Shown piece by piece: positions 1 through 10,381 of a stretch of 10,381 nt of DNA. Source of the DNA: Gammaproteobacteria bacterium (lineage in GTDB: Bacteria > Pseudomonadota > Gammaproteobacteria > Xanthomonadales > Xanthomonadaceae); assembly GCA_012510865.1 (NCBI GenBank), contig JAAZHF010000337.1, positions 1 to 10,381 of the forward strand. Reading direction: 5' to 3'. The first letter of the stretch is position 1. Every line of letters starts with the position of its first letter. The notes under the pieces were generated by a model. The model made no database searches. It was not told where the DNA came from and saw only the letters and a list, made by a program, of their open reading frames with translations. Position numbers and translations under genes: made by a program.

Positions 1-508
1 GGTCACCATCATCACCGAGGAGGACGACGGCCGCGAACTGATCCTGGGCTATTTCGGCCCCGGCGAGTTCGTCGGCGAGATGGGCCTGTTCATCGAGTCG
101 GACATCCGCGAGGTGGTCCTGCGCACGCGGGTCCAGACCGAGCTGGCCGAGATCAGCTACGAGCGCCTCTACCAGCTGTTCGAGGGATCGCTGTCCGGGG
201 ACGCCACCCAGATCGTCTATGCGATCGGCGCCCAGCTTTCGCGCCGCCTGCTCGACACCAGCCGCAAGGCCGGACGCCTGGCCTTCCTCGACGTCACCGA
301 CCGCATCACGCGCACCCTGCACGACCTGACCCGCGAGCCCGAGGCGATGAGCCATCCGGACGGCACCCAGCTGCGGGTGTCGCGCCAGGAGCTGGCGCGG
401 CTGGTGGGCTGCTCGCGCGAGATGGCCGGGCGCGTGCTGAAGAAGCTGCAGGCCGACGGCAAGCTCCACGCCCGCGGCAAGACGATCGTGCTCTACGGCA
501 CCCGCTGA
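1..508 (+). CDS. clp: Clp, CRP-like global transcription regulator (5' end outside window)
   Basis: Partial gene: 168 codons are visible (frame starts at base 2), against about 230 in Xanthomonas Clp, so roughly the first 60 residues are missing. The visible part covers the end of the cyclic-nucleotide-binding beta barrel (GYFGPGEFVGEMGLF), the long dimerisation helix (QLSRRLLDTSRKAGRLAFLDVTDRI) and a winged helix-turn-helix (RVSRQELARLVGCSREMAGRVLKKL), ending in VLYGTR. In E. coli CRP the phosphate-binding pair after the GE(F)xGE motif is Arg-Ser; here it is Arg-Glu (IREVV). That change is typical of Clp, which is known to respond to cyclic di-GMP rather than cAMP and to control virulence, exopolysaccharide and extracellular enzyme genes. 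The stop is 5 nt before the acetyltransferase gene, so the two may share a transcript. The Clp assignment is strong. The ligand is inferred from the family. Confidence 0.95.
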   Translation, partial: VTIITEEDDGRELILGYFGPGEFVGEMGLFIESDIREVVLRTRVQTELAEISYERLYQLFEGSLSGDATQIVYAIGAQLSRRLLDTSRKAGRLAFLDVTDRITRTLHDLTREPEAMSHPDGTQLRVSRQELARLVGCSREMAGRVLKKLQADGKLHARGKTIVLYGTR

Positions 509-513
509 GCCGG

Positions 514-984
514 ATGCCCAGCGCGTTCGAGCCACGGGGCACCCTGCCGGACGCCGACCTGCGGAGCGCGTCGGAGATCGATGCCGACGACGTCGCCGCC
601 CTGCTGAGCGCGCTGGGCTATCCCTGCGACGCCGCCGACGCCGCCCGCCGCATCGCCACCATCACCGCCAACGACCGCCAGGCCCTGGTGGTGGCCCGCT
701 GCGGCGGCATGGTCTGCGGGCTGGTCGCGCTGGACTTCATGTACTACCTGCCGCTGGACACCACCACCTGCCGGATCACCGCCCTGGTGGTCTCGCCCGG
801 CGCCCAGGGCCGCGGCCTCGGCCGGCAGCTGCTGCGCGAGGCGGAACGCCGCGCGCGCGCCGCCGGCGCCGCCCGGATCGAACTGACCAGCGGCTCGCAG
901 CGCACCGAGGCCCACGCCTTCTACCGGGCCTGCGGCTTCGGCGACGGCACCCTGCGCTTCATCAAGCGCCTCGGCGAGGCCTGA
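514..984 (+). CDS. GNAT-family N-acetyltransferase
   Basis: A 156-residue protein with a single GNAT fold, predicted to be cytoplasmic. The acetyl-CoA pyrophosphate-binding loop of motif A is clear: beta strand ITALVVSP, then Q98-G-R-G101-L-G103 and the helix RQLLREAERRARAAG. Motif B follows as RIELTSGSQRTEAHAFYRACGF, with Tyr137 in the position of the usual general-acid tyrosine. It lacks the signatures that would separate RimI, aminoglycoside or other known acetyltransferases, so the substrate cannot be named. The ATG lies 5 nt after the clp stop with no good Shine-Dalgarno sequence, which suggests translational coupling to clp. The family call is secure; function beyond acetyl transfer is unknown. 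Confidence 0.88.
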   Translation: MPSAFEPRGTLPDADLRSASEIDADDVAALLSALGYPCDAADAARRIATITANDRQALVVARCGGMVCGLVALDFMYYLPLDTTTCRITALVVSPGAQGRGLGRQLLREAERRARAAGAARIELTSGSQRTEAHAFYRACGFGDGTLRFIKRLGEA

Positions 985-1043
985 AGCCGCCGCGCTGCGC
1001 TGGCCGCGATCGCCCCGCACCCGTACCCTGTCGATCCCCACCA

Positions 1044-1058
1044 GCGGGCGCTGCCCGC
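1044..1058. repeat. Short GC hairpin upstream of the TSUP gene
   Basis: A perfect 6-bp inverted repeat, GCGGGC / GCCCGC, with a 3-nt loop lies in the 89-nt gap between the acetyltransferase and the transporter, 15 nt before the transporter start. No T-run follows, so it is not a convincing intrinsic terminator. In DNA this GC-rich it may be chance. Confidence 0.3.
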
Positions 1059-1073
1059 GCCAGGCCACCGCGC

Positions 1074-1829
1074 ATGCCGGAACTGCTCGGGTCCCACTTC
1101 CTGGTCTTCGTCGCCATCGGCCTCTGCGCCCAGCTGGTCGACGGCGCGCTGGGCATGGCCTATGGCCGGGTGTCCGCAGCGGTGCTGCTGGCGCTGGGCA
1201 TGCCCCCGGCGGCGGTCAGCGCCAGCGTCCACACCGCCGAGGTGTTCACCACCGGCGTCTCCGGCGCCGCCCACGGCATGCTCGGGAACGTCGACCGCCG
1301 GCTGATGCTGCGGCTCGCGGTGCCGGGCGTGGCCGGAGGCGTCATCGGCGCCACCGTCCTGAGCCGGATCGACGGCGACGTGGTCAAGCCCTGGATCCAC
1401 GCCTACCTGTCCGTGCTTGCGCTGCTGATCCTGCTGCGTGCGACGGGCCGGCGGCTGCCGCGCGGCGAAGTGCGGCGCGTCGGGGCGCTGGGCTTCGCCT
1501 CCGGCCTGCTCGACGCCATCGGCGGCGGCTGCTGGGGGCCGATGGGGACCTCCACCCTGCTCGCTGGCGTCGGCGAGGCGCGCACCAGCATCGGATCGGT
1601 GAGAGCCGCGGAGTCCGCGGTGACGATCGCGATCTCGCTCACCTTCCTGCTCTCGATCGGGATCGACCACTGGCGCGTGGTCGCCGGCCTGCTGCTGGGC
1701 GGCGTCATCGCCGCGCCGCTGGCGGCGCTGCTGGTGCGGCACGTGCGCGAGCGCGCGGTGCTGTTCGCCGTCGGCGCCCTGGTGCTCGCGATCTCGTGCT
1801 TCCAGATCTACCGCACGCTCGCCGGCTGA
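1074..1829 (+). CDS. TSUP (TauE/SafE) family membrane transporter
   Basis: A 251-residue, almost wholly hydrophobic inner-membrane protein with about eight predicted helices. It shows the two-fold internal repeat of the TauE/SafE family (PF01925): GLCAQLVDGALGMAYG at about 16-31 and GFASGLLDAIGGGCWGP at about 140-156, each opening one half. Family members move sulfite, sulfonates, thiosulfate or related small anions, but the substrate here cannot be read from the sequence. The charged loop RATGRRLPRGEVRRV (122-136) joins the halves. It lies 89 nt after the acetyltransferase, without a strong ribosome site. Its last 22 nt overlap the end of the HAD phosphatase gene on the other strand. No sulfur-metabolism genes flank it in the window. 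Confidence 0.88.
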   Translation: MPELLGSHFLVFVAIGLCAQLVDGALGMAYGRVSAAVLLALGMPPAAVSASVHTAEVFTTGVSGAAHGMLGNVDRRLMLRLAVPGVAGGVIGATVLSRIDGDVVKPWIHAYLSVLALLILLRATGRRLPRGEVRRVGALGFASGLLDAIGGGCWGPMGTSTLLAGVGEARTSIGSVRAAESAVTIAISLTFLLSIGIDHWRVVAGLLLGGVIAAPLAALLVRHVRERAVLFAVGALVLAISCFQIYRTLAG

Positions 1830-2623
1830 GCGCGGTCGGCGGGGAGCGGCGCGCCTCCCGCATAGGTGCCGGCGGCCACGGCCTCGCCCGCCCGCCCGGG
1901 ACAGCCCCAGTTGAGCACCGGCGTGCCCGGCGGCAGCTCCCGCCTGAAGCGCGCGACCGCGCGCGCCTTCGGGTTCACCACCACCGGCGAACGCGCCGCG
2001 CGCAACAGCGGAAGGTCGGCGCTGGAGTCGGAGTAGGCGGCGTCGATGTCGCCCCAGCCGAGCTCGCGCAGCATGCGCATCTTCTCTTCGTTGTGGCAGT
2101 GGCGCGCGGCCACCACGGCGCCGAAGCGCGGCCCGGCGAGGGTGCCGACCACCGGCACGTCGTCGTGGGCCACGAAGGCGAGGATCGCGCGCGCCAGCTC
2201 GGGCGGCGCCCCGGTGGCCACCACCACGCGGTCGCCGCGCTCGCGGTGGCGATGGAAGGCCTCCAGCGCCACCGGCAGCAGGCGCGCGCGGATCCGACCG
2301 GCGTGGCCCGCGACGTAGGCGTCGATCAGCGCATCCAGTTCGCGCACGCGATGCAGGCCCACCGTGCCGGCCCAGACGAAGCCCGAGATCCCGAGCCGGC
2401 GCGTCGGCAGGAAGGCCACCATCGGCCCGAACACCGGCGCCAGCAGCAGCGCGAGGACCCGTCGCCACCAGCTGCGCTTGATCAGCCACGCGAACAGGTG
2501 GCTGCCGGAGTCGCCGTCGTAGAGCGTGTGGTCGAAGTCGAACACGACCAGCGGCGCGTCGCCGCGCGGGCCGGCGCCCGGCGGGCGCACCGCCGGCGGC
2601 GGACCGAGCGGCGCGCCGCTCAC
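1808..2623 (-). CDS. HAD-IB family phosphatase (SerB-like), last gene of trp operon
   Basis: 271 residues from a GTG start that overlaps the trpC stop by 4 nt (GTGA). The reading frame stays open far upstream into trpC, but the first convincing motif begins at residue 25, so GTG at 2623 is the natural start. All four HAD motifs are visible: motif [12 protein letters not shown] with Asp29 (nucleophile) and Asp31; motif II VVVATG with Thr137; motif III Lys181 in NEEKMRML; motif [12 protein letters not shown] with Asp199 and Asp203. The GDSGSHLF stretch and the helical cap (about 45-125) match the HAD-IB hydrolases related to phosphoserine phosphatase. The substrate is unknown. Position suggests co-expression with tryptophan synthesis, but none of the known tryptophan steps needs a phosphatase. 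Its tail overlaps the convergent transporter gene by 22 nt. Confidence 0.87.
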
Positions 2624-3435
2624 GTACCGAACATCCCGCGCAGCGCGGCGCCCGGGTCGTCGGCGCGCATGAAGGCCTCGCCGACCAGGAAGGCGTCGAT
2701 CCCGGCGCCGCGCAGCAGCGCGACGTCGGCGGCGGTCATCACCCCGCTCTCGGTCACCAGTCGGCGGCCGTGCGGCGCCCTCGCCTTGAGCTGCAGCGTC
2801 GTCTCCAACGAGACCTCGAAGGTCCGCAGGTCGCGGTTGTTGACCCCAAGCAGGGGCATGCGGCCCGCGACCGCCGCCAGCCGCAGCGCACGCTCGAACT
2901 CTCCGGCATCGTGCACTTCGGCCAGCACGTCCATGCCCAGCTCCAGCGCCTGCGCCGAAAGGTCGTGCAGCAGCCCGTCGTCCAGCCCGGCGAGGATCAG
3001 CAGCACGCAGTCCGCGCCGAGCACCCGGGCCTCGTCGACCTGGTAGGCGTCGACGATGAAATCCTTCCGCAGCACCGGCAGCGTGCACGCCGCCCGCGCC
3101 CGGCGGAGGTAGGCGTCGGAACCCTGGAAGAAGTCGACGTCGGTGAGCACCGAGAGGCAGGCCGCACCGCCGGCCTCGTAGCTGCGCGCGATGGCGGCGG
3201 GGTCGAAGTCGGCGCGGATGACGCCCTTCGACGGGCTGGCCTTCTTCACCTCGGCGATCACCGCGGCGTGCCCGGCGGCGATCTTCGCCTCGAGCGCCGA
3301 AGCGAAGCCGCGCGGCGCAGGGGCATCGGCCAGCAGCGCCCGCAGCCCGGCGCGCGGCAGCCTCCGGCTGCGCTCCGCGACCTCCTCGACCTTGCGCGCG
3401 AGGATCCGCGCCAGCACGTCGGGCGCCGCGCTCAT
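2620..3435 (-). CDS. trpC: Indole-3-glycerol-phosphate synthase
   Basis: A 271-residue (beta/alpha)8 barrel of normal length for a monofunctional TrpC, with no fused TrpF domain. It closes the ring of 1-(2-carboxyphenylamino)-1-deoxyribulose 5-phosphate to give indole-3-glycerol phosphate in the cytoplasm. Active-site signatures are intact: [11 protein letters not shown] (Glu62, Lys64), LRKDFI (Lys124), LAEVH (Glu173), GVNNRDL (Asn199/200), TESG (Ser230) and the phosphate-binding FLVGEAFM. The ATG overlaps the trpD stop by 4 nt (ATGA), and its own stop overlaps the GTG of the HAD gene, so all three are probably translated from one message. Nothing suggests loss of function. Confidence 0.97.
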
Positions 3436-4478
3436 GCCGTGCCCCCCACCCCGGCAAGCGCGCGCGTGGCGGCCACGAACGCGTCCAGCCGCGCGCGCGC
3501 GGCCCCGGAGGCGATCGTTGCGCGCGCCAGCTCCACGCCGCCGGCGATCGAGTCCGCGACGCCGGCGACGTACAGCGCGGCGCCTGCGTTGAGCGCAACG
3601 ATCCGGCCCGGCAGGCCCTCGGCGTCGCCGATCGCCTCCAGCACCATCGCCTTCGACTCCGCGGCGCTTTCCACCCTCAGGTTGCGGCTGGCCGCCATCG
3701 GTATGCCGAAGTCCTCCGGGTGGACCTCGTACTCGCGCACCTGCCCGTCACGCAGCTCGCCGACCAGGGTGCCGGCGCCGAGCGAGATCTCGTCCATGCC
3801 GTCCCGGCCCCAGACCACCAGCGCGCGCTCGGCGCCCAGCTCCTGCAGCACGCGCACCTGGATGCCGACCAGGTCCGGGTGGAACACGCCCATCAGGATC
3901 GCCGGGGCGCCGGCCGGATTGGTCAGCGGACCGAGGATGTTGAACAGCGTGCGCACGCCCATCTCGCGGCGCACCGGGGCCACCACCTTCATCGCCGGGT
4001 GGTAGGCCGGCGCGTACATGAAGCCGATGCCGGTGCGGGCGATGGATTCCGCCACCGCCTCCGGCGCCAGCTCGATCGCCGCGCCCAGCGCCTCGTAGGC
4101 GTCGGCGCTGCCCGAGGTCGAGGACACGCTGCGCCCGCCGTGCTTGGCGACGCGGCCGCCGGCGGCGGCGATCACGAAGCTCGAGGCGGTGGAGATGTTG
4201 AAGGTGTTGGCGCCGTCGCCGCCGGTGCCGACGATGTCGACCAGGTGCGTGCGGTCCGCGACCTCGACCTTCCTCGCCAGCTCGCGCATGGCCCGGGCGG
4301 CGCCGGTGATCTCGCCCACGGTCTCCTTCTTCACCCGCAGGCCGATCATGATCGCCGCGGTCATCTGCGGGGACACCTCGCCGCGCATCACCTGGCGCAT
4401 GAGGTCAAACATCTCGTCCTCGAAGATCTCGCGGTGTTCGATGGTGCGCTGGAGGGCTTCCTGGGGCGTGATGGGCAT
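3432..4478 (-). CDS. trpD: Anthranilate phosphoribosyltransferase
   Basis: 348 residues, the usual length of a free-standing TrpD. It joins anthranilate to phosphoribosyl pyrophosphate to give phosphoribosyl anthranilate. Visible motifs are the PRPP-binding glycine loop GTGGDG (84-89), NIST (94-97), [15 protein letters not shown] (112-126), NILGPLTNP (180-188) and the metal-binding Asp229-Glu230 pair (MDEIS). The start at 4478 follows trpG by 70 nt and lacks a recognisable Shine-Dalgarno sequence. The stop overlaps trpC by 4 nt. Unlike the enterobacterial protein it is not fused to the TrpG amidotransferase, which is a separate gene just upstream. Confidence 0.97.
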
Positions 4479-4548
4479 GGTCGGGGAAGGGGCTCTGTCG
4501 ATGGGAGGCGGCGGCGCCGGGCAGCCGTCGGCGGCGGCGGCGGGCGGC

Positions 4549-5127
4549 TCAGGCGTCGAGGAAGTTCTTCAGCAGCGCGTGCCCGTGCTGGCTGAGGATG
4601 GACTCGGGGTGGAACTGCACGCCCTGGACCGGGTGCGTGCGGTGGCGCAGGCCCATGATCTCCTCGCGGCTGCCGTCGTCGTTCTCGGTCCAGGCCGTCA
4701 CTTCGAGGCAGTCCGGCAGGCTCGCCTGCTCCACCACCAGGGAATGGTAGCGCGTGGCCTCGAAGCCGTCCGGCAGCGCGTTGAACACACCGTTCCCGCC
4801 GTGCCGGATCGGCGAGGTCTTGCCATGCATGATCCGCCCGGCGCGCACCACCCGCCCGCCGTAGGCCTGGCCGATGGCCTGGTGCCCGAGGCAGACGCCG
4901 AGGATGGGCGTGGTCGGCCCCAGGCGCTCGATCACCTCGAGCGACACGCCGGCCTCGTTGGGCGTGCACGGCCCGGGCGAGATCACGATGTGGCTTGGCG
5001 CGCGGCGCGCGATCGCGTCGACGTCGATGGCATCGTTGCGCACCACCTCCACCTCCGCGCCCAGGACCTGCAGGTACTGCACGAGGTTGAAGGTGAAGCT
5101 GTCGTAGTTGTCGATCATCAGGAGCAT
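4549..5127 (-). CDS. trpG: Anthranilate synthase glutamine amidotransferase subunit (component II)
   Basis: A class I glutamine amidotransferase of 192 residues that would supply ammonia to TrpE for anthranilate synthesis. The triad is complete: Cys79 in GVCLGHQ, His173 and Glu175 in QFHPES. The oxyanion motif SPGPCTP (50-56) and the N-terminal [19 protein letters not shown] are typical. I chose the ATG at 5127 because family members begin right at this MxLxIDNYDSF strand. An in-frame ATG at 5178 would add 17 residues rich in Ala, Thr and Arg with no family counterpart. trpE is not in the window, so the large subunit must be encoded elsewhere. The protein could also serve aminodeoxychorismate synthase as PabA, as dual-use TrpG proteins do, but linkage to trpD and trpC favours tryptophan. 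Confidence 0.94.
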
Positions 5128-5192
5128 GTGGCGCGCCGGTCCCGTTCGTGCCGCAGTGGCGGCCGGATAGGTTCGCATGCCCGCGCGCGCCC

Positions 5193-5244
5193 GGCGAGCC
5201 GGCGCCGCCGTGCATGGATCACCGCCGGGTCACGCCGGCTCGCC
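5193..5244. repeat. Perfect 12-bp inverted repeat in the trpG-chaB divergent region
   Basis: GGCGAGCCGGCG at 5193-5204 is exactly complementary to CGCCGGCTCGCC at 5233-5244, with a 28-nt spacer. An 8-bp palindrome, GCCTAGGC, follows at 5242-5249. The repeat sits 20 nt before the chaB ribosome site and 65 nt before the chosen trpG start, in the only gap between these two divergent operons. It could be a hairpin in either 5' leader or an operator. No T-run follows it on either strand, and no Trp-rich leader peptide is visible. Confidence 0.55.
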
Positions 5245-5264
5245 TAGGCTCGTTGCGCTCGCCG

Positions 5265-5273
5265 AAGGAGGAG
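5265..5273 (+). promoter_or_regulatory. Strong Shine-Dalgarno site of chaB
   Basis: AAGGAGGAG, with its GGAGG core ending 7 nt before the ATG at 5279, is the best ribosome-binding site in the window. It rules out the longer in-frame start at 5177 and fixes the chaB N-terminus at MPYS. Confidence 0.85.
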
Positions 5274-5278
5274 CCGCC

Positions 5279-5506
5279 ATGCCGTATTCCCGACTCAGCG
5301 ACCTGCCGGAGTCCGTGCGCGACAACGTGCCCAGGCACGCGCAGGAGATCTACAAGGAAGCCTTCAACGCCGCCTGGGAGCAGTACGCCGACGCCGAAGA
5401 CCGTCGCGGCGACGCCTCCCGCGAGGAAACCGCCCACCGCGTCGCCTGGTCGGCGGTCAAGGAGAAGTACGCCAAGGGCGACGACGGCACGTGGCACGCA
5501 AAGTAG
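5279..5506 (+). CDS. chaB: ChaB family protein
   Basis: 75 residues, nearly the same length as E. coli ChaB (76) and alike along its whole length: MPYxxxSDLPESV, HAQEIYKEAFNAAWEQY, EDRRGDASREETAHRVAW and EYAKGDDxxWH-type blocks are all present. ChaB is a small soluble protein, historically called a regulator of the ChaA cation/proton antiporter; its biochemical role is poorly defined. It opens the oxidase operon after the only gap on this strand, and its last 16 nt overlap the start of the subunit II gene in another frame, so the pair is probably translationally coupled. No chaA is present in the window. The family call is very secure; its role in an oxidase operon is unknown. Confidence 0.95.
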   Translation: MPYSRLSDLPESVRDNVPRHAQEIYKEAFNAAWEQYADAEDRRGDASREETAHRVAWSAVKEKYAKGDDGTWHAK

Positions 5507-6195
5507 GCGCGGCCGCGGCGCTGGCCGCGCTGCTCGCCGGCTGTGCCGGTCCCCAGTCCGCGCTCGATCCCGCCGGTCCCGCCGCCGAGGCGATCGCCGG
5601 CATCTGGTGGGCGATGTTCTGGGGGGCGATGGCGGCCTGGCTGCTGGTGATGGGCCTGGTGTCCTGGGCGCTCTACCGCGGCCGGAACACGCGCGCCCTC
5701 GCCCGGCCCGGGCGGCTGATCGTCGGCGGGGGGCTCGTGCTGCCCCCGCTGCTGCTTGCCGGCCTGCTGGTGTACGGCTCGGTCTCGAGCGCGCGCATCA
5801 CCGGCCTGGGCGCCGGGGTGGACGCGCGCGTCGACGTCGTCGCCGAACGCTGGCGCTGGCGCTTCCGCTACCTCGACGACGATGGCCGGGCGGTCGCCGA
5901 GTCCTTCGACGTGCTGTCGCTGCCGCGCGGGCGCATGGTCGAGTTCCGGATCACCGGCACCGACGTCATCCATTCGTTCTGGATCCCGCGCCTGGGGGGC
6001 AAGGTCGACGCCATCCCGGGCCGGGTCAACCGGCTGCGCCTGCGCGCCGACGGCGACGGCCGCATCCGCGGCCAGTGCGCCGAGTATTGCGGCACCGGCC
6101 ACGCGGTGATGGCCTTCGAGGTGCTCGTCCACGACGATGCCGGGCACGCCGCCTGGCTGGCACGGCATCCCGTCCGGGAAGGGAGCCCGCCTTGA
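5491..6195 (+). CDS. ctaC: Cytochrome c oxidase subunit II, lipoprotein, CuA-containing
   Basis: 234 residues from a GTG start inside the end of chaB. The start is supported by a complete lipoprotein signal: Arg3-Lys4, a hydrophobic run, and the lipobox LLAG-Cys18. Two membrane helices follow (about 38-60 and 76-97), then the periplasmic cupredoxin domain. All CuA ligands are present: His161 (TDVIHSFWIP), Cys196, Glu198, Cys200, His204 and Met207 in GQCAEYCGTGHAVM. The aromatic electron-entry strand is WRWRFRY (121-127). The intact CuA site argues for cytochrome c rather than quinol as donor. There is no C-terminal cytochrome c domain. The second helix lacks the usual E-x-x-W-T motif; the position of the K-channel entry Glu is Val78 or Gly79. 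The stop overlaps the next gene's TTG start. Confidence 0.95.
   Translation: MARKVGAAAALAALLAGCAGPQSALDPAGPAAEAIAGIWWAMFWGAMAAWLLVMGLVSWALYRGRNTRALARPGRLIVGGGLVLPPLLLAGLLVYGSVSSARITGLGAGVDARVDVVAERWRWRFRYLDDDGRAVAESFDVLSLPRGRMVEFRITGTDVIHSFWIPRLGGKVDAIPGRVNRLRLRADGDGRIRGQCAEYCGTGHAVMAFEVLVHDDAGHAAWLARHPVREGSPP
6179..6185 (+). promoter_or_regulatory. Shine-Dalgarno site deciding the TTG start of the oxidase fusion gene
   Basis: AAGGGAG lies 6 nt before the TTG at 6192. No ATG or GTG occurs between the subunit II stop and the first helix in this frame, so this site supports a TTG start (TTGA overlap). Confidence 0.7.
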
Positions 6196-8705
6196 GCACC
6201 CCCGCTCCCGCGCCGGGGCCCGCTGATCCCCGCCTGCAGGCTCTGCACGCCACCTGGTCGGCCGGCAGCGGCTGGCGCGCGGGCCTGGCCGCGGTCAACC
6301 ACTCGACCATCGGCCTGCGCTTCATCGCAACCGGGCTGGCGTTCTTCCTGGTCGGCGGCCTGCTGGCGATGTTCATGCGCGTGCAGCTGGCCTGGTTCGG
6401 CAACGAGGTGCTGGACCCGCAGCGCTACGCCGAGTTCACCACCATGCACGGCACCACGATGATGTTCCTGTTCGCGGTGCCGGTGATGGAAGGCTTCGCG
6501 CTGTACCTGCTGCCGAAGATGCTCGGCGCGCGCGACCTCCCCTTCCCGCGGCTGTCCGCGTTCGGCTACTGGTGCTACCTGTTCGGCGGGCTGTTCCTGT
6601 ATTCCAGCTTCCTGTTCGACGCCGTGCCCGACAGCGGCTGGTTCATGTACGTGCCGCTCACCGATGCCACCTGGTCGCCCGGGCTCAACGCCGACTTCTG
6701 GCTGGTCGGGGTGACCTTCTCCGAAATCGCGGCGGTGGCCGCCGCGGTCGAGATGATCGTCGCCATCCTGGTCGGCCGCGCGCCGGGCATGGACCTGCGG
6801 CGCATGCCGCTGTTCGCCTGGGCGATGCTGGTGACGTCCTTCATGATCGCCTTCGGCTTCCCGCCGCTGATCCTGGCCAGCATCCTGCTGGAGATCCAGC
6901 GCGCATTCGGCTTCGTGTTCTTCGATCCCGCGCTGGGCGGCGACCCGCTGCTGTGGCAGCACCTCTTCTGGCTGTTCGGGCACCCCGAGGTCTACATCAT
7001 CTTCCTGCCGGCCGCGGGCGTGGTGTCGATGGTGGTGCAGGCCTTCGCGCGGCGACCGATGGTGGGCTACACCTGGATCGTGCTGGCGCTGGTGGGCACC
7101 GGCTTCCTGAGCTTCGGGCTCTGGGTGCACCACATGTTCACCGTCGGCATCCCGCTGCTGGCCATGGCCTTCTTCAGCGCCGCGAGCATGGCGGTCGCGA
7201 TCCCGATGGGCATCCAGGTATTCGCCTGGATCGCCACGCTGTGGGCCGGGCGGCCGTGGCTGCGCGTGCCGACGCTGTACCTCTTCGGCTTCTTCTTCGT
7301 CTTCGTGCCCGGCGGACTGACCGGCGTGATGGTGGCCATGGTGCCCTTCGACTGGCAGGCCCACGACAGCCATTTCGTGGTCGCCCACCTGCACCACGTG
7401 CTGATCGGCGGGCTGCTGTTCCCGCTGTTCGCGGGCCTCTACTACTGGCTGCCCCTGGCAAGCGGCCGGGAGCCGTCGGAGAGCCTCAGCCGCACGGCGT
7501 TCTGGCTGGTGTTCACCGGCTTCAACCTGACCTTCCTGCCGATGTACCTGACCGGCCTCCTGGGGATGCCGCGGCGCGCATACACCTACTTGCCCGATCT
7601 TGGCTTCCACTGGCTCAACCTGCTGTCGACCGCGGCCGGCTTCGTGCTGGCGGTCGGCATGGTCGCGGTGCTGGTGGACGTCGCGATGAGCTTCCGGCAC
7701 GGGCCGCGTGCGCGGCGCAACCCATGGCGCGCGGGCACGCTGGAGTGGGCGATCGCGCATCCGGTGCCCGACTTCAACTTCGCTTCGCTGCCCCGGGTGC
7801 GGGGGCGCGACCCGCTGTGGGCCGACCCGACCCTGGCCGCGGCGACCTCCGTGCCCGGCGGCCTGCTTGGCGACGCCCGCCACGGCGTCCGGGAACTGAT
7901 CGGCTCGAGCCTGCTGGACGCGCGGCCCGAGCAGGTGATCCGGGTGTCCGGGCCGAGCCGGCTGCCCCTGCTGGCGGCGCTCGCGCTGGCCGTGCTGCTT
8001 GCGTTCTTCATCGCCGGCCTCTACTGGCCGGCGCTCGCCATGCTCCCCGTGCTGCTGGCCATCCTGTGGCGCTGGGCATGGACCACCGGCGACCCGGGCG
8101 GACCCGACGCCGTGGAAGCCGAACCCGGACTGGTTCTGCCGACCCAGGGATCGGCGCGCAACGCGCCGGGATGGTGGGCGCTGGTGATGTCGCTCCTGGT
8201 CGACGGCTCGCCGTTCGCCTCGCTGGTCTTCAGCTACTTCTACCTGTGGCTGGGAACGGACGCCTGGCCGCCGGCCGGGCTGGGCATCGCCGGTTGGCCG
8301 GCGGCGATCGCATCGCTGCTCCTGCTGCTGGCCTGCGGCGCCGCCGCCGAACACGCGGCCCGCGCCCTGCGCCGCGAGGAGGGCACCCGGGCCGCCACCG
8401 CCTGGGTGGCGGCCACGGTCCTCGGCGCCGGCTCCATCGCTGCCCAGGCCTGGGCGATGGCGCCGGCCGGCGCTCCGGGAAGGCATGCGTATGCCTCGGT
8501 CGCATGGACCCTCGCCGGCTTCCACGCCGTGCACGTGCTGCTGGCCATGCTGTTCGCGGCCTTCGTCGCGGCGCGGCTGCGCCGCGGCCTGGTCACCGCG
8601 GCGCGCCCGCTGGAGGCCCGCGTGGCGGCCGGCCTGTGGCGCTACACCGTCGGCCAGGGCCTGCTGGCCTGGGCCGTCCTCCACCTGTTCCCGAGACTGG
8701 CATGA
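6192..8705 (+). CDS. ctaD: Cytochrome c oxidase subunit I/III fusion
   Basis: An 837-residue inner-membrane protein from a TTG start. Residues about 1-510 are heme-copper oxidase subunit I: heme a ligands His86 and His401, heme a3 ligand His399, CuB ligands His264, His313 and His314, cross-linked Tyr268, active-site Glu266 (GHPEVY), Mg-site His391-Asp392, and propionate arginines 461-462 (GMPRR). A linker (TLEWAIAHPVPDFNF, RDPLW) and two extra helices (about 597-635) lead to a subunit III-like domain (about 665-837) with WPP at 702-704 and GFHAVHV at 786-792. The enzyme reduces O2 to water. D115 of the D channel is kept, but the K-channel Thr and Lys are Met339 and Gln342. Two, probably three, D-channel asparagines are replaced (Leu104, Ser122, perhaps Glu187). 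Similar I/III fusions are known in caa3-type oxidases. Confidence 0.95.
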   Translation: MSTPAPAPGPADPRLQALHATWSAGSGWRAGLAAVNHSTIGLRFIATGLAFFLVGGLLAMFMRVQLAWFGNEVLDPQRYAEFTTMHGTTMMFLFAVPVMEGFALYLLPKMLGARDLPFPRLSAFGYWCYLFGGLFLYSSFLFDAVPDSGWFMYVPLTDATWSPGLNADFWLVGVTFSEIAAVAAAVEMIVAILVGRAPGMDLRRMPLFAWAMLVTSFMIAFGFPPLILASILLEIQRAFGFVFFDPALGGDPLLWQHLFWLFGHPEVYIIFLPAAGVVSMVVQAFARRPMVGYTWIVLALVGTGFLSFGLWVHHMFTVGIPLLAMAFFSAASMAVAIPMGIQVFAWIATLWAGRPWLRVPTLYLFGFFFVFVPGGLTGVMVAMVPFDWQAHDSHFVVAHLHHVLIGGLLFPLFAGLYYWLPLASGREPSESLSRTAFWLVFTGFNLTFLPMYLTGLLGMPRRAYTYLPDLGFHWLNLLSTAAGFVLAVGMVAVLVDVAMSFRHGPRARRNPWRAGTLEWAIAHPVPDFNFASLPRVRGRDPLWADPTLAAATSVPGGLLGDARHGVRELIGSSLLDARPEQVIRVSGPSRLPLLAALALAVLLAFFIAGLYWPALAMLPVLLAILWRWAWTTGDPGGPDAVEAEPGLVLPTQGSARNAPGWWALVMSLLVDGSPFASLVFSYFYLWLGTDAWPPAGLGIAGWPAAIASLLLLLACGAAAEHAARALRREEGTRAATAWVAATVLGAGSIAAQAWAMAPAGAPGRHAYASVAWTLAGFHAVHVLLAMLFAAFVAARLRRGLVTAARPLEARVAAGLWRYTVGQGLLAWAVLHLFPRLA

Positions 8706-9094
8706 GCACCGCCGCGCCGATGACGGGACTGCTCTCGCCGTACCGGCTGGCCGGCATCGCCGCCCCGATGACGGTCTGGGCGCTGCACCTGGTCCTGGTC
8801 TACGCGGTGCAGGGCATCACCTGCGGGCACGGCCTGGCCAATCCGCGCATCGCCGGCCTCGAGGCGCTGTCGTGGTGGCTGCTCGCGCTGACCGCGGCCG
8901 CCTTCGCCGCCCTGGCATGGACGGGGCTGCGCGCGTGGCGTGGATGGCGCGCCGCGGATGCGGGGGCGGCGACGCCCGCGATCGCGGCGCGCCGACGCTT
9001 TGCCGCCGCGGTGGCGTCCGCGCTCAGCGTGCTGTCCGCGGTGGCCGTCGCGTTCACCGCGACTCCCGTCCTGCTGCTCCCGGGGTGCGCCTGA
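8702..9094 (+). CDS. Small three-helix membrane protein of the oxidase operon, unknown function
   Basis: 130 residues; the ATG overlaps the fusion gene's stop by 4 nt (ATGA). Three predicted membrane helices lie at about 17-38, 58-78 and 98-122. The first carries WALHLVLVYAVQGITCGHG, with His29, Tyr34, Cys41 and His43 near one face or end. The C-terminus is LLLPGCA. The sequence matches no family I can name with certainty. The W-x-x-H-x-x-x-x-Y...C pattern resembles uncharacterised proteins encoded next to CtaG-type oxidase operons. Tight coupling to subunits I/III suggests an accessory subunit or an assembly or metal-handling factor. It is too hydrophobic to be soluble and has no cytochrome c motif (CxxCH). 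Confidence 0.82.
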   Translation: MSTAAPMTGLLSPYRLAGIAAPMTVWALHLVLVYAVQGITCGHGLANPRIAGLEALSWWLLALTAAAFAALAWTGLRAWRGWRAADAGAATPAIAARRRFAAAVASALSVLSAVAVAFTATPVLLLPGCA

Positions 9095-9095
9095 C

Positions 9096-9623
9096 ATGGC
9101 CGAGTCGCTGAAGCCGCCCACCCCGCCCCGGCTCAGCCGCACGGTCGAGAGCCGGGTGGCGATCAGGAGCCATCCTCTGCATCCCATGCTGGTGGTGTTC
9201 CCGATCGCCTTCCTGGCCACGGTGGCGCCTGCCGACCTGCTGTTCCTGTGGAGCGGCCTGGCGTTCTGGGCACAGCTGTCGCTCTTCATGAGCGCGGCCG
9301 GCCTCGCGCTGGGGGTCGTGGCCGCGGCGGCGGGCACGGTGGACCTGCTGCTGATCCGGGTGGTGCGCCGGCACGTTTCGGCCTGGAGCCACGCGCTGGC
9401 CGCGGTGATGCTGCTGGCGTTCGCGGCGGCGAACACCTGGCTGCGCTGGCCCGATCCGGCAGCGGCCGTCTGGCCGTGGGGCCTGCTGCTGTCGGTGCCG
9501 ATGGCCGCCCTGGTGGGCATCGCCGGCTGGCTGGGCGGCGGGCTCAGCTTCCACCACGGCATCGGCGTCGCGGGGCACGAGGGCGCGGAAGACCGCGGCC
9601 CCGATGTGCCGCCGGAACCATGA
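9096..9623 (+). CDS. DUF2231 family membrane protein
   Basis: 175 residues, starting 1 nt after the previous stop. The N-terminus has the family signature SHPLHPMLVVFPIAF (25-39) with Asp47, then AQLSLFMSAAGLALGVVAAAAGTVDLL (59-85), a histidine before the third helix (His99), Asn113, and GGLSFHHGIGVAG near the end. Four membrane helices are likely (about 30-52, 61-86, 97-115, 128-148). The conserved histidines and aspartates resemble heme- or metal-binding positions, but no function is established for the family. It is the last gene of the + strand oxidase run and converges on the HemJ-like gene, with 32 nt between the two stops and no clear terminator. The family call rests on motif recall, not a search. 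Confidence 0.85.
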   Translation: MAESLKPPTPPRLSRTVESRVAIRSHPLHPMLVVFPIAFLATVAPADLLFLWSGLAFWAQLSLFMSAAGLALGVVAAAAGTVDLLLIRVVRRHVSAWSHALAAVMLLAFAAANTWLRWPDPAAAVWPWGLLLSVPMAALVGIAGWLGGGLSFHHGIGVAGHEGAEDRGPDVPPEP

Positions 9624-9655
9624 GCATGCGCTGCGCCGCGCCCTGCACCCCGGCC

Positions 9656-10114
9656 TCAGCGCCGGGCAGCGGTACCCGGTGGCGGCGGGAGGTCGCCGAG
9701 CGTCTGCGGCTTGGCCCCCGTGAGCGCGGCGACGAGGAGCAGCACGAGCAGCGGCGCCCAGCCAAGGAGCCGGTAGATCCAAGGCCCGTGGCGCTCGCGC
9801 CCCTGGCCGAGCTCGTACAGCACCATGCCCAGGTACAGGTGCAGGAAGACCGCCCCGGCCACGAGCGCGAGCTTCATCGCCAGCCAGGCACCGGTGGGTC
9901 CGTATGCGATCAGCAGCATGCCGGTGGCCACGGCCACGAGGGCGGCGGGCGTCGCCATGCGGAAGTAGAGGGTGTTGGCGGTGGCGTTGAAATAGGAGGC
10001 CCCGGCGTCGCGCCCGCCCCGGTGCCGGGCCGCGAACAGCCGCGGCAGGAAGAACAGGCCCGTGAACCAGAGGACCATCGCCGAGACATGCAGGATCTTC
10101 AGCCAGGAATACAC
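9656..10114 (-). CDS. HemJ/CopD-like membrane protein
   Basis: 152 residues from a GTG preceded by GGGGGAG at a good distance; this start gives VYSWLKILHVSAMVLWFTGLFFLPRLF, the usual N-terminus of the family. Longer in-frame starts add only an Arg/Pro-rich tail and are rejected. Four membrane helices are predicted. The conserved His9 (LKxLH), Lys81 (AMKLALV) and His92 (FLHLYLG) match HemJ-type protoporphyrinogen IX oxidase and its relatives, which are often annotated as CopD family proteins. HemJ oxidises protoporphyrinogen IX during heme synthesis; CopD-type relatives are linked to copper import. Both fit a heme-copper oxidase locus, and the sequence alone does not decide. The gene is on the opposite strand to the oxidase genes on either side. 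Confidence 0.82.
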   Translation of the reverse strand: MYSWLKILHVSAMVLWFTGLFFLPRLFAARHRGGRDAGASYFNATANTLYFRMATPAALVAVATGMLLIAYGPTGAWLAMKLALVAGAVFLHLYLGMVLYELGQGRERHGPWIYRLLGWAPLLVLLLVAALTGAKPQTLGDLPPPPGTAARR

Positions 10115-10119
10115 GGGCG

Positions 10120-10126
10120 CTCCCCC
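10120..10126 (-). promoter_or_regulatory. Shine-Dalgarno site of the HemJ/CopD-like gene
   Basis: On the - strand GGGGGAG ends 5 nt before the GTG at 10114. It fixes the start and fills most of the 12-nt gap to the divergent CtaG-type gene. Confidence 0.6.
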
Positions 10127-10381
10127 ATGGGTTGGCGCCAGTGTGCCGGGCCGGGCGCGAAGCGACCGTGGTGGCCGGCTGGCGGGCCCACGCGCGCGCG
10201 GGCCGCGCGGTTCGCGGCCGCGCTGCTGCTCGCGGTCGCGCCCTGGGAGTCCGCGTCGGCGCACGCCGGCCATCCACATCCGCCCACCCTGGCAACGGCC
10301 GTCTCGGCCACGCCCTGGCTGCTGGTGCCGCTGGCCGCCTGGGTCCTCCTGTACGCGGCCGGCCTCCGAAGACTGTGGGGA
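10127..10381 (+). CDS. CtaG-like (caa3-type) cytochrome c oxidase assembly protein, 3' end outside window
   Basis: The first 85 codons of a gene that runs off the right edge. The ATG at 10127 is the only ATG, GTG or TTG in this frame before the signal sequence. After an Arg-rich start comes a secretion signal (about 24-45) with a likely cut after Ala45 (SASA|HAGHP). A first membrane helix follows, TPWLLVPLAAWVLLYAAGLRRLW. A His-containing mature N-terminus followed by xxPWxLxPLxxxxxLYxxGLxRLW is typical of the caa3_CtaG family (PF09678), which helps mature CuA or caa3-type oxidases and differs from Cox11-type CtaG. Context supports this: a CuA oxidase operon ends 0.5 kb upstream. No Shine-Dalgarno precedes the ATG, and only 12 nt separate it from the divergent gene. 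Confidence is limited by the short visible length. Confidence 0.75.
   Translation, partial: MGWRQCAGPGAKRPWWPAGGPTRARAARFAAALLLAVAPWESASAHAGHPHPPTLATAVSATPWLLVPLAAWVLLYAAGLRRLWG

Follow-up and report, generated by a model that had tools for sequence, protein, structure and literature searches.

How does an A-type cytochrome c oxidase work when the lysine of its K proton channel is missing? The question is raised by contig JAAZHF010000337.1 (assembly GCA_012510865.1) of a gammaproteobacterium of the family Xanthomonadaceae, of which positions 1 to 10,381, a stretch of 10,381 nucleotides called here the window, were analysed. The window carries coxB, encoding subunit II of the oxidase, and a ctaD-ctaE fusion encoding subunits I and III as a single protein (Table 1). 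A sequence-only reading of this DNA had placed Met339 and Gln342 of the fusion at the positions of bovine Thr316 and Lys319 in the K-channel. We report here that the replacement of this lysine by glutamine characterises a clade of I/III fusions found in many proteobacterial genera. Residues of Paracoccus denitrificans and Rhodobacter sphaeroides are marked Pd and Rs, respectively; Lys354 (Pd), Lys362 (Rs) and bovine Lys319 are the same position.

Both assignments were borne out by the codons, by alignment with P. denitrificans subunit I, in which Lys354 falls on Gln342 and Thr351 on Met339, and by pairwise alignments with solved structures, which set PTGIK over PMGIQ without a gap. The codon check and the P. 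denitrificans alignment likewise upheld the earlier statement that the CuB ligands, the other aligned metal ligands, Glu266, Tyr268 and Ser279 are retained, the residues kept relative to P. denitrificans being Ser291, Tyr280, Glu278, Asp124, the CuB ligands His276, His325 and His326, His403 and Asp404, and His411 and His413, with which heme ligands of the window enzyme align. The P. denitrificans reference begins at residue 116 and leaves the heme a ligand His94 outside the comparison; its counterpart in the window is presumably His86, which does not vary across 50 aligned rows of the clade. A lysine elsewhere in helix VIII, which would have undermined the earlier reading, was looked for and none was found. 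The sole lysine of the 837-residue fusion is Lys109, which rules out a compensating lysine in that helix.

The glutamine was found at the Lys354 (Pd) position in 120/120 homologues (the best 120 of 7997 scored, 58-100% identical and including the window's own entry) and in 80/80 genome loci (the best 80 of 580 confirmed, from organisms that overlap with those of the homologue set); the six peptide patterns used to find the genome loci exclude residues 339-342. When 249 Pseudomonadota genomes were sampled, Gln was present in the window genome and in at least 21 others (15 full-length fusions, 5 shorter subunits I and the fragment L127), and the matches listed also included a fragment that stops short of the position (L129) and three genomes with an Ala/Thr form. 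In the largest alignment, of 266 rows, the Lys354 column holds Gln in 229 rows, Lys in 33, Ala or Thr in 3 and a gap in 1 (L129). Rows are called here Gln-type or Lys-type according to this column, and their counts therefore apply to the remaining columns; Lys-type rows were picked by hand from match lists, together with the P. denitrificans reference.

The expectation that Met and Gln would both be conserved through the fusion clade thus held for Gln, whereas position 339 proved variable: M 69, T 44, A 4 and S 3 among the 120 homologues, and T 74, M 5 and S 1 among the 80 genome loci. The Thr-to-Met change is local and lies outside the coordinated change of the clade, most of the wider clade keeping Thr. 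A coordinated loss of the K-channel Thr is ruled out by this variability.

Could the altered motif merely reflect a decayed gene, a sequencing error or a misalignment? The frame is open, the motif alignments are ungapped, and none of the 120 homologues has the Lys of the PTGxK motif, which an error in this sequence would have implied. The ratio of the proportions of nonsynonymous and synonymous differences (pN/pS) was 0.19-0.23 in comparisons with three different close relatives (L005, L016 and L155; L153 and L154 repeat the values of L005 and L016) and 0.48-0.52 against L008, L012 and L013, for which synonymous sites are possibly near saturation. The gene is intact and, judging from these ratios, under purifying selection. 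Gln in all 120 homologues and a pN/pS of about 0.2 therefore argue that the replacement is due neither to chance nor to error, in agreement with the sequence-only reading, which had held decay to be unlikely, and leave this explanation a negligible probability.

As had also been noted, subunit II lacks the K-channel Glu and the W-T that follows it: Val78 occupies the column of the entry Glu (E101 of Rs subunit II) and the W-T of the E-x-x-W-T motif falls on Gly. Subunit II was recovered for 110 Gln-type rows, 108 of which were readable at the Glu column, and none of these carries Glu (0/108). In the DNA examined, subunit II was found beside only 9 of the 33 Lys-type rows (the remaining 24 gave no match), and the 8 that were readable all carry Glu. 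The three Ala/Thr rows have Ile at this column. The claim that three channel residues were changed together hence stands for Lys and the subunit II Glu, which go together in the readable rows, but not for the Thr.

The rest of the proton machinery had been taken to be normal, and here the earlier view had to be abandoned. Relative to P. denitrificans, the D-channel of the window enzyme reads N131S, S134G (Gly125), S193A (Ala181) and N199E, with Leu104 at N113; the latter, as well as Phe44 at Y35, was read via the columns of the canonical rows. The predicted D-channel is remodelled alongside the K-channel, the asparagine gate being lost, N207 (Rs) being replaced by Glu187 and acids being gained on helices II and IV, and Table 1 gives the distribution of these residues between Gln-type and Lys-type rows. 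Three further residues typical of Gln-type rows were observed: Glu234 in helix V (6891-6893; acid in 220/229), Asp496 in the final helix belonging to subunit I (7677-7679; acid in 223/229) and Lys109 near the D-channel entry (6516-6518; Lys in 211/229 Gln-type and 0/33 Lys-type rows).

Two branches differ from this pattern. Asn131 (Pd) is present in 8 Gln-type rows, namely 7 whose subunit I is shorter, at about 640-650 amino acids (L088, L093 and L119-L123, of which L088 and L093 are named Rhizobium plasmids) and the fused Paraburkholderia L089. The shorter proteins combine Gln354 with Glu199, and their entry Asp124 is Asn in 7/7, as if the helix IV Glu had replaced the entry Asp in this branch. 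A sister clade (L124-L126 and the homologues P0121-P0240, with Sphingomonas among the named members) lacks both the K-channel Lys and Glu286. It has Trp for Glu278 (Pd) in L124-L126 and in 120/120 listed L124 homologues, among which the Lys354 position is Ala in 108, Thr in 10, Asp in 1 and Gly in 1, and Asp124, Asn131 and Asn199 are kept in 120/120.

In an 89-row tree (a thinned selection with nine channel columns removed and the fragments L127 and L129 excluded; Q 58, K 28, A 2, T 1), the Lys rows lay on one side of a single branch, with a Shimodaira-Hasegawa-like approximate likelihood ratio test (SH-aLRT) value of 99, and the Gln rows likewise on one side of another (96). All 58 rows of the window's clade have Gln in this tree. 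A careful 47-row tree gave 100/99 for the Lys side and 98/94 for the Gln side, and in unrooted trees the sister clade adjoins the Gln clade. Rooting with CcoN and nitric oxide reductase of the window genome put the Lys-less groups at the base, but the outgroup branches exceed 3 changes per site, which makes the placement untrustworthy; a B-type outgroup sought with family NF041075 at E <= 1e-60 was not found in 199 genomes.

How, then, would protons reach the active site? The account that we favour, to which we give slightly less than an even chance, is that of a working oxidase that takes its protons mainly via the rebuilt D-type channel and perhaps pumps few of them or none. The electron path would be the usual one, from CuA by way of heme a to the heme a3-CuB centre. 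The protons, among them the ones that the K-channel supplies in model enzymes for reduction of the active site, would come mainly through the rebuilt channel, by way of Asp115, Glu187, Glu100, water past the former gate, and Glu266. Pumping may be weak or absent because Ser or Thr at the gate uncouples it in model enzymes: the D-pathway mutants N98D, N98T and N98S (N139 in Rs) keep O2 reduction and lose pumping (PMC12901375). The same article states that the D-pathway could carry seven of the eight protons. Mutants without the Lys still carry out the first reduction of the active site, and the B and C families run on one K-type channel (PMC8079940); likewise, one electron still reaches the active site in K362M (PMC10341450).

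Several observations weigh against this account. PMC12901375 itself argues for pumping via the H-pathway, not the D-channel. The facing of the new acids is a helix-wheel estimate only, made from the R. sphaeroides D-channel residue list of PMC10341450, and it turns Glu100 and Glu187 toward the D-channel and Glu178 apparently away from it. Among the matches listed, Glu278 (Pd) is Asp in 8/119 other homologues, and Paraburkholderia L089 lacks both Asp124 and Glu199 (Ser124 and Val199, with an acid elsewhere in helix IV). As few events suffice in the tree, the row-wise association of the channel residues represents shared history, not replication. Finally, Gln never drifts within the clade (58/58 tree rows, 80/80 genome loci), by contrast with the Lys354 position of the sister clade, and Ser279 is nearly constant, which suggests that the old K-path position keeps a job.

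This constancy of Gln and Ser279 is the best evidence for a rival explanation, in which a K-type path still works without lysine, through Gln342, Ser279, Tyr268, water and, in most members, Thr at 339. It would need a different entrance, because the subunit II Glu is gone. All 80 genome loci carry the Gln, 79 the Ser and 74 the Thr, and the K-like path of B- and C-type oxidases does its work without this Lys (PMC3084760, PMC8079940). However, the Thr is Met in the window, the subunit II Glu is missing in every readable Gln-type row and S291 is Ala in L091, L112, L113 and L117. Moreover, reduction of heme a3 is essentially blocked in K319M (PMC12901375), although that mutant has Met and not Gln at the position, and according to PMC10341450 the K-channel of A-type oxidases cannot deliver protons without the Lys, a view that it calls the consensus. 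We regard a surviving K-type path, the main rival, as rather unlikely. Similarly doubtful is a stronger form of the favoured account, in which all protons would pass by one rebuilt D-type channel, as a mirror of the single K-type channel of B- and C-type oxidases, and the Lys-less state may be older than the canonical K-channel.

The genome setting bears on a third explanation. In the window's genus, a match of 68-100% identity was found in 41/51 genomes, 40 of which also have one or more additional matches, scored on overall identity, of 36-39%. The fusion could accordingly be a slow, non-pumping or specialised second oxidase, its low turnover being tolerated as other oxidases carry the main flux. 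Substitutions of N139 are known to uncouple (PMC12901375), and a Rhizobium etli coxMNOP mutant grew without a distinct defect (PMC4274787), which counts here if the oxidase in question is of this clade. The exception among the 41, however, is the window genome itself, which shows no second A-type match, though in an assembly that is 91% complete and split into 469 contigs, and has three other, more distant PF00115 matches. The spread over many proteobacterial genera and the purifying selection further point to a useful rate, and we consider a second oxidase of this kind improbable. By eye, two of the three other PF00115 matches resemble cbb3 subunit I and one NO reductase. Absence of heme A synthesis was ruled out by a CtaA match in the genome (open frame, 194 amino acids, model positions 152-322 of 322).

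The nearest named relatives of the window oxidase, in both the homologue and the genome listings, are Luteimonas. By motif, the CuA ligands of subunit II would be His161, Cys196, Glu198, Cys200, His204 and Met207. The fusion is followed by a small open reading frame (ORF) and two genes for membrane proteins (Table 1); in relatives L087, L089 and L091 a hypothetical protein gene comes after ctaD. The annotated plasmid relatives L086 and L087 cluster a cytochrome c oxidase assembly gene, a CopD family gene, a DUF2231 gene, coxB and ctaD, and the UPF0093 gene of the window is perhaps the counterpart of their CopD family gene. L089, L091 and L092 have other neighbours, without DUF2231 within the stretch shown. 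Directly upstream of the oxidase genes, the minus strand holds TrpC-, TrpD- and TrpG-like ORFs (2620-5178; named by reading their translations). The Pfam scan also recognised a TauE/SafE-type permease (1074-1829) and a ChaB domain protein (5258-5506), and positions 80-508 correspond to the C-terminal part of a CRP-like regulator, with a score below the curated cut-off.

Table 1. Oxidase genes, channel residues and downstream genes of the window. Pd, P. denitrificans; Rs, R. sphaeroides; row counts are from the 266-row alignment.
Feature	Position	Strand	Remarks
coxB/ctaC, cytochrome c oxidase subunit II, 234 aa	5491..6195	+	PF00116 63 bits; TIGR02866 141.1 bits, below the 147.7 cut-off
Val78 of subunit II, column of K-channel entry Glu (Rs E101-II)	5722..5724	+	subunit II alignment
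ctaD-ctaE fusion, subunit I+III, 837 aa	6192..8705	+	TTG start overlaps coxB stop; PF00115 466.8 bits
Glu100, helix II acid, one turn from the lost Asn gate	6489..6491	+	E in 221/229 Gln-type; I, V, P, A, L and others in 33 Lys-type
Leu104 at asparagine gate N113 (Pd)/N121 (Rs)	6501..6503	+	M/L/I/V/A in 229/229 Gln-type; Asn in 32/33 Lys-type, 1 gap
Asp115, D-channel entry acid (Pd D124)	6534..6536	+	Gln-type D 216/229, N 7
Ser122 at asparagine gate N131 (Pd)/N139 (Rs)	6555..6557	+	Gln-type S 151, T 37, G 31, N 8, others 2 (n=229); Lys-type Asn 33/33
Glu178, helix IV acid (Pd G190)	6723..6725	+	E in 228/229 Gln-type, 1 gap; Lys-type G 32, I 1
Glu187 at D-channel N199 (Pd)/N207 (Rs)	6750..6752	+	Gln-type E 219, D 6, G 2, V 1, gap 1; Lys-type Asn 33/33
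Glu266-Val267-Tyr268, D-channel end and active-site Tyr	6987..6995	+	align with Pd E278 and Y280; E and Y in 80/80 genome loci
Ser279 (Pd S291), K-channel serine kept	7026..7028	+	S in 79/80 genome loci
His313-His314, CuB ligands	7128..7133	+	codon check; 80/80 genome loci
Met339 (ATG) at K-channel Thr351 (Pd)	7206..7208	+	codon and alignment; local change
Gln342 (CAG) at K-channel Lys354 (Pd)	7215..7217	+	Gln in 120/120 homologues and 80/80 genome loci
Small ORF, 130 aa	8702..9094	+	start overlaps ctaD-ctaE stop; hydrophobic by eye; no Pfam match
DUF2231 membrane protein	9096..9623	+	PF09990 107.6 bits
UPF0093 membrane protein	9656..10279	-	PF03653 77.3 bits

By sequence and by fold, the fusion belongs to the A branch. 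It scored 684.2 against the curated CtaD model TIGR02891 (cut-off 670.75). Its predicted structure, obtained with a 50-row alignment, has a mean predicted local distance difference test score (pLDDT) of 86.5 and a predicted template modelling score (pTM) of 0.90, confidence falling below 50 at residues 1-10, 261-263, 316-318 and 380-395. The best Foldseek match of the model was the fused caa3 I+III chain of Thermus thermophilus (2yev_A; 821 columns, template modelling score 0.84 on the query, 31% identity), with A-type chains among the matches. The subunit III part is present, residues 690-833 matching chain 9fks_i, while the Pfam COX3 family was not reached in the window. Of the features that define A-type oxidases in PMC3084760, the fusion carries the CuB ligands and Tyr280 in GHPEVY. 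The D-channel set (D124, N199, N113, N131, Y35, S134, S193 and E278) is incomplete, as is the K-channel set of K354, T351, S291 and Y280, in which Q342 and M339 stand beside the kept S279 and Y268.

K-channel variation in family A was already known, since Degli Esposti and others (2021; PMC8239418) described archaeal family A variants, sorting K-channel variants into classes on a COX1 tree with 28 archaeal and 2 bacterial members. According to these authors, an archaeal ancestor would imply seven independent losses, and they reject the archaeal-ancestor hypothesis; they also noted the proteobacterial COX1-3 fusions for their long branches. A limited search of the literature, in sources available in part, found no description of the Gln-for-Lys proteobacterial COX1-3 clade, of its joint D-channel change or of the sister clade without Glu and Lys, and no occurrence of K362Q, K319Q or K354Q. 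The group comprises widespread bacterial mitochondria-like oxidases in which the K-channel Lys is replaced by Gln and the predicted D-channel is rebuilt. A large Lys-less clade with gate residues like those of uncoupling mutants provides natural enzymes with which to test the division of labour between the channels and what pumping requires, and the sister clade without Lys and Glu286 widens the same natural test.

Taken together, these comparisons place the window enzyme among known oxidases as follows. With the canonical A1-type aa3 enzymes of Paracoccus, Rhodobacter and bovine mitochondria it shares the CuB ligands, His403/Asp404 and His411/His413 (Pd), GHPEVY, the entry Asp, Ser291 and the fold. 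It differs from them in lacking Lys354 and the subunit II Glu, in the loss of the asparagine gate, in the change of N199 to Glu and in the fusion of subunit III to subunit I. The caa3 oxidase of T. thermophilus (2yev) also has subunits I and III fused and is matched over the whole length of the fold. This A2-type enzyme has the K-channel Lys, and its Glu is replaced by Tyr-Ser; the window enzyme, by contrast, keeps Glu266 and is without the K-channel Lys. B- and C-type oxidases, as far as the sources cited above describe them, resemble the window enzyme in having no Lys at the K-channel position and, if the favoured account is right, in having one effective route of proton entry. Their single route is of the K type, however, whereas in the window's clade the K-type residues are largely gone and the D-type residues appear to be rebuilt. 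Degli Esposti and others (2014, 2021) described COX1-3 fusions of Proteobacteria within COX operon type a, a group that may correspond to the window's clade; in common are the fused COX1-3, the occurrence in Proteobacteria and the long branches in COX1 trees.

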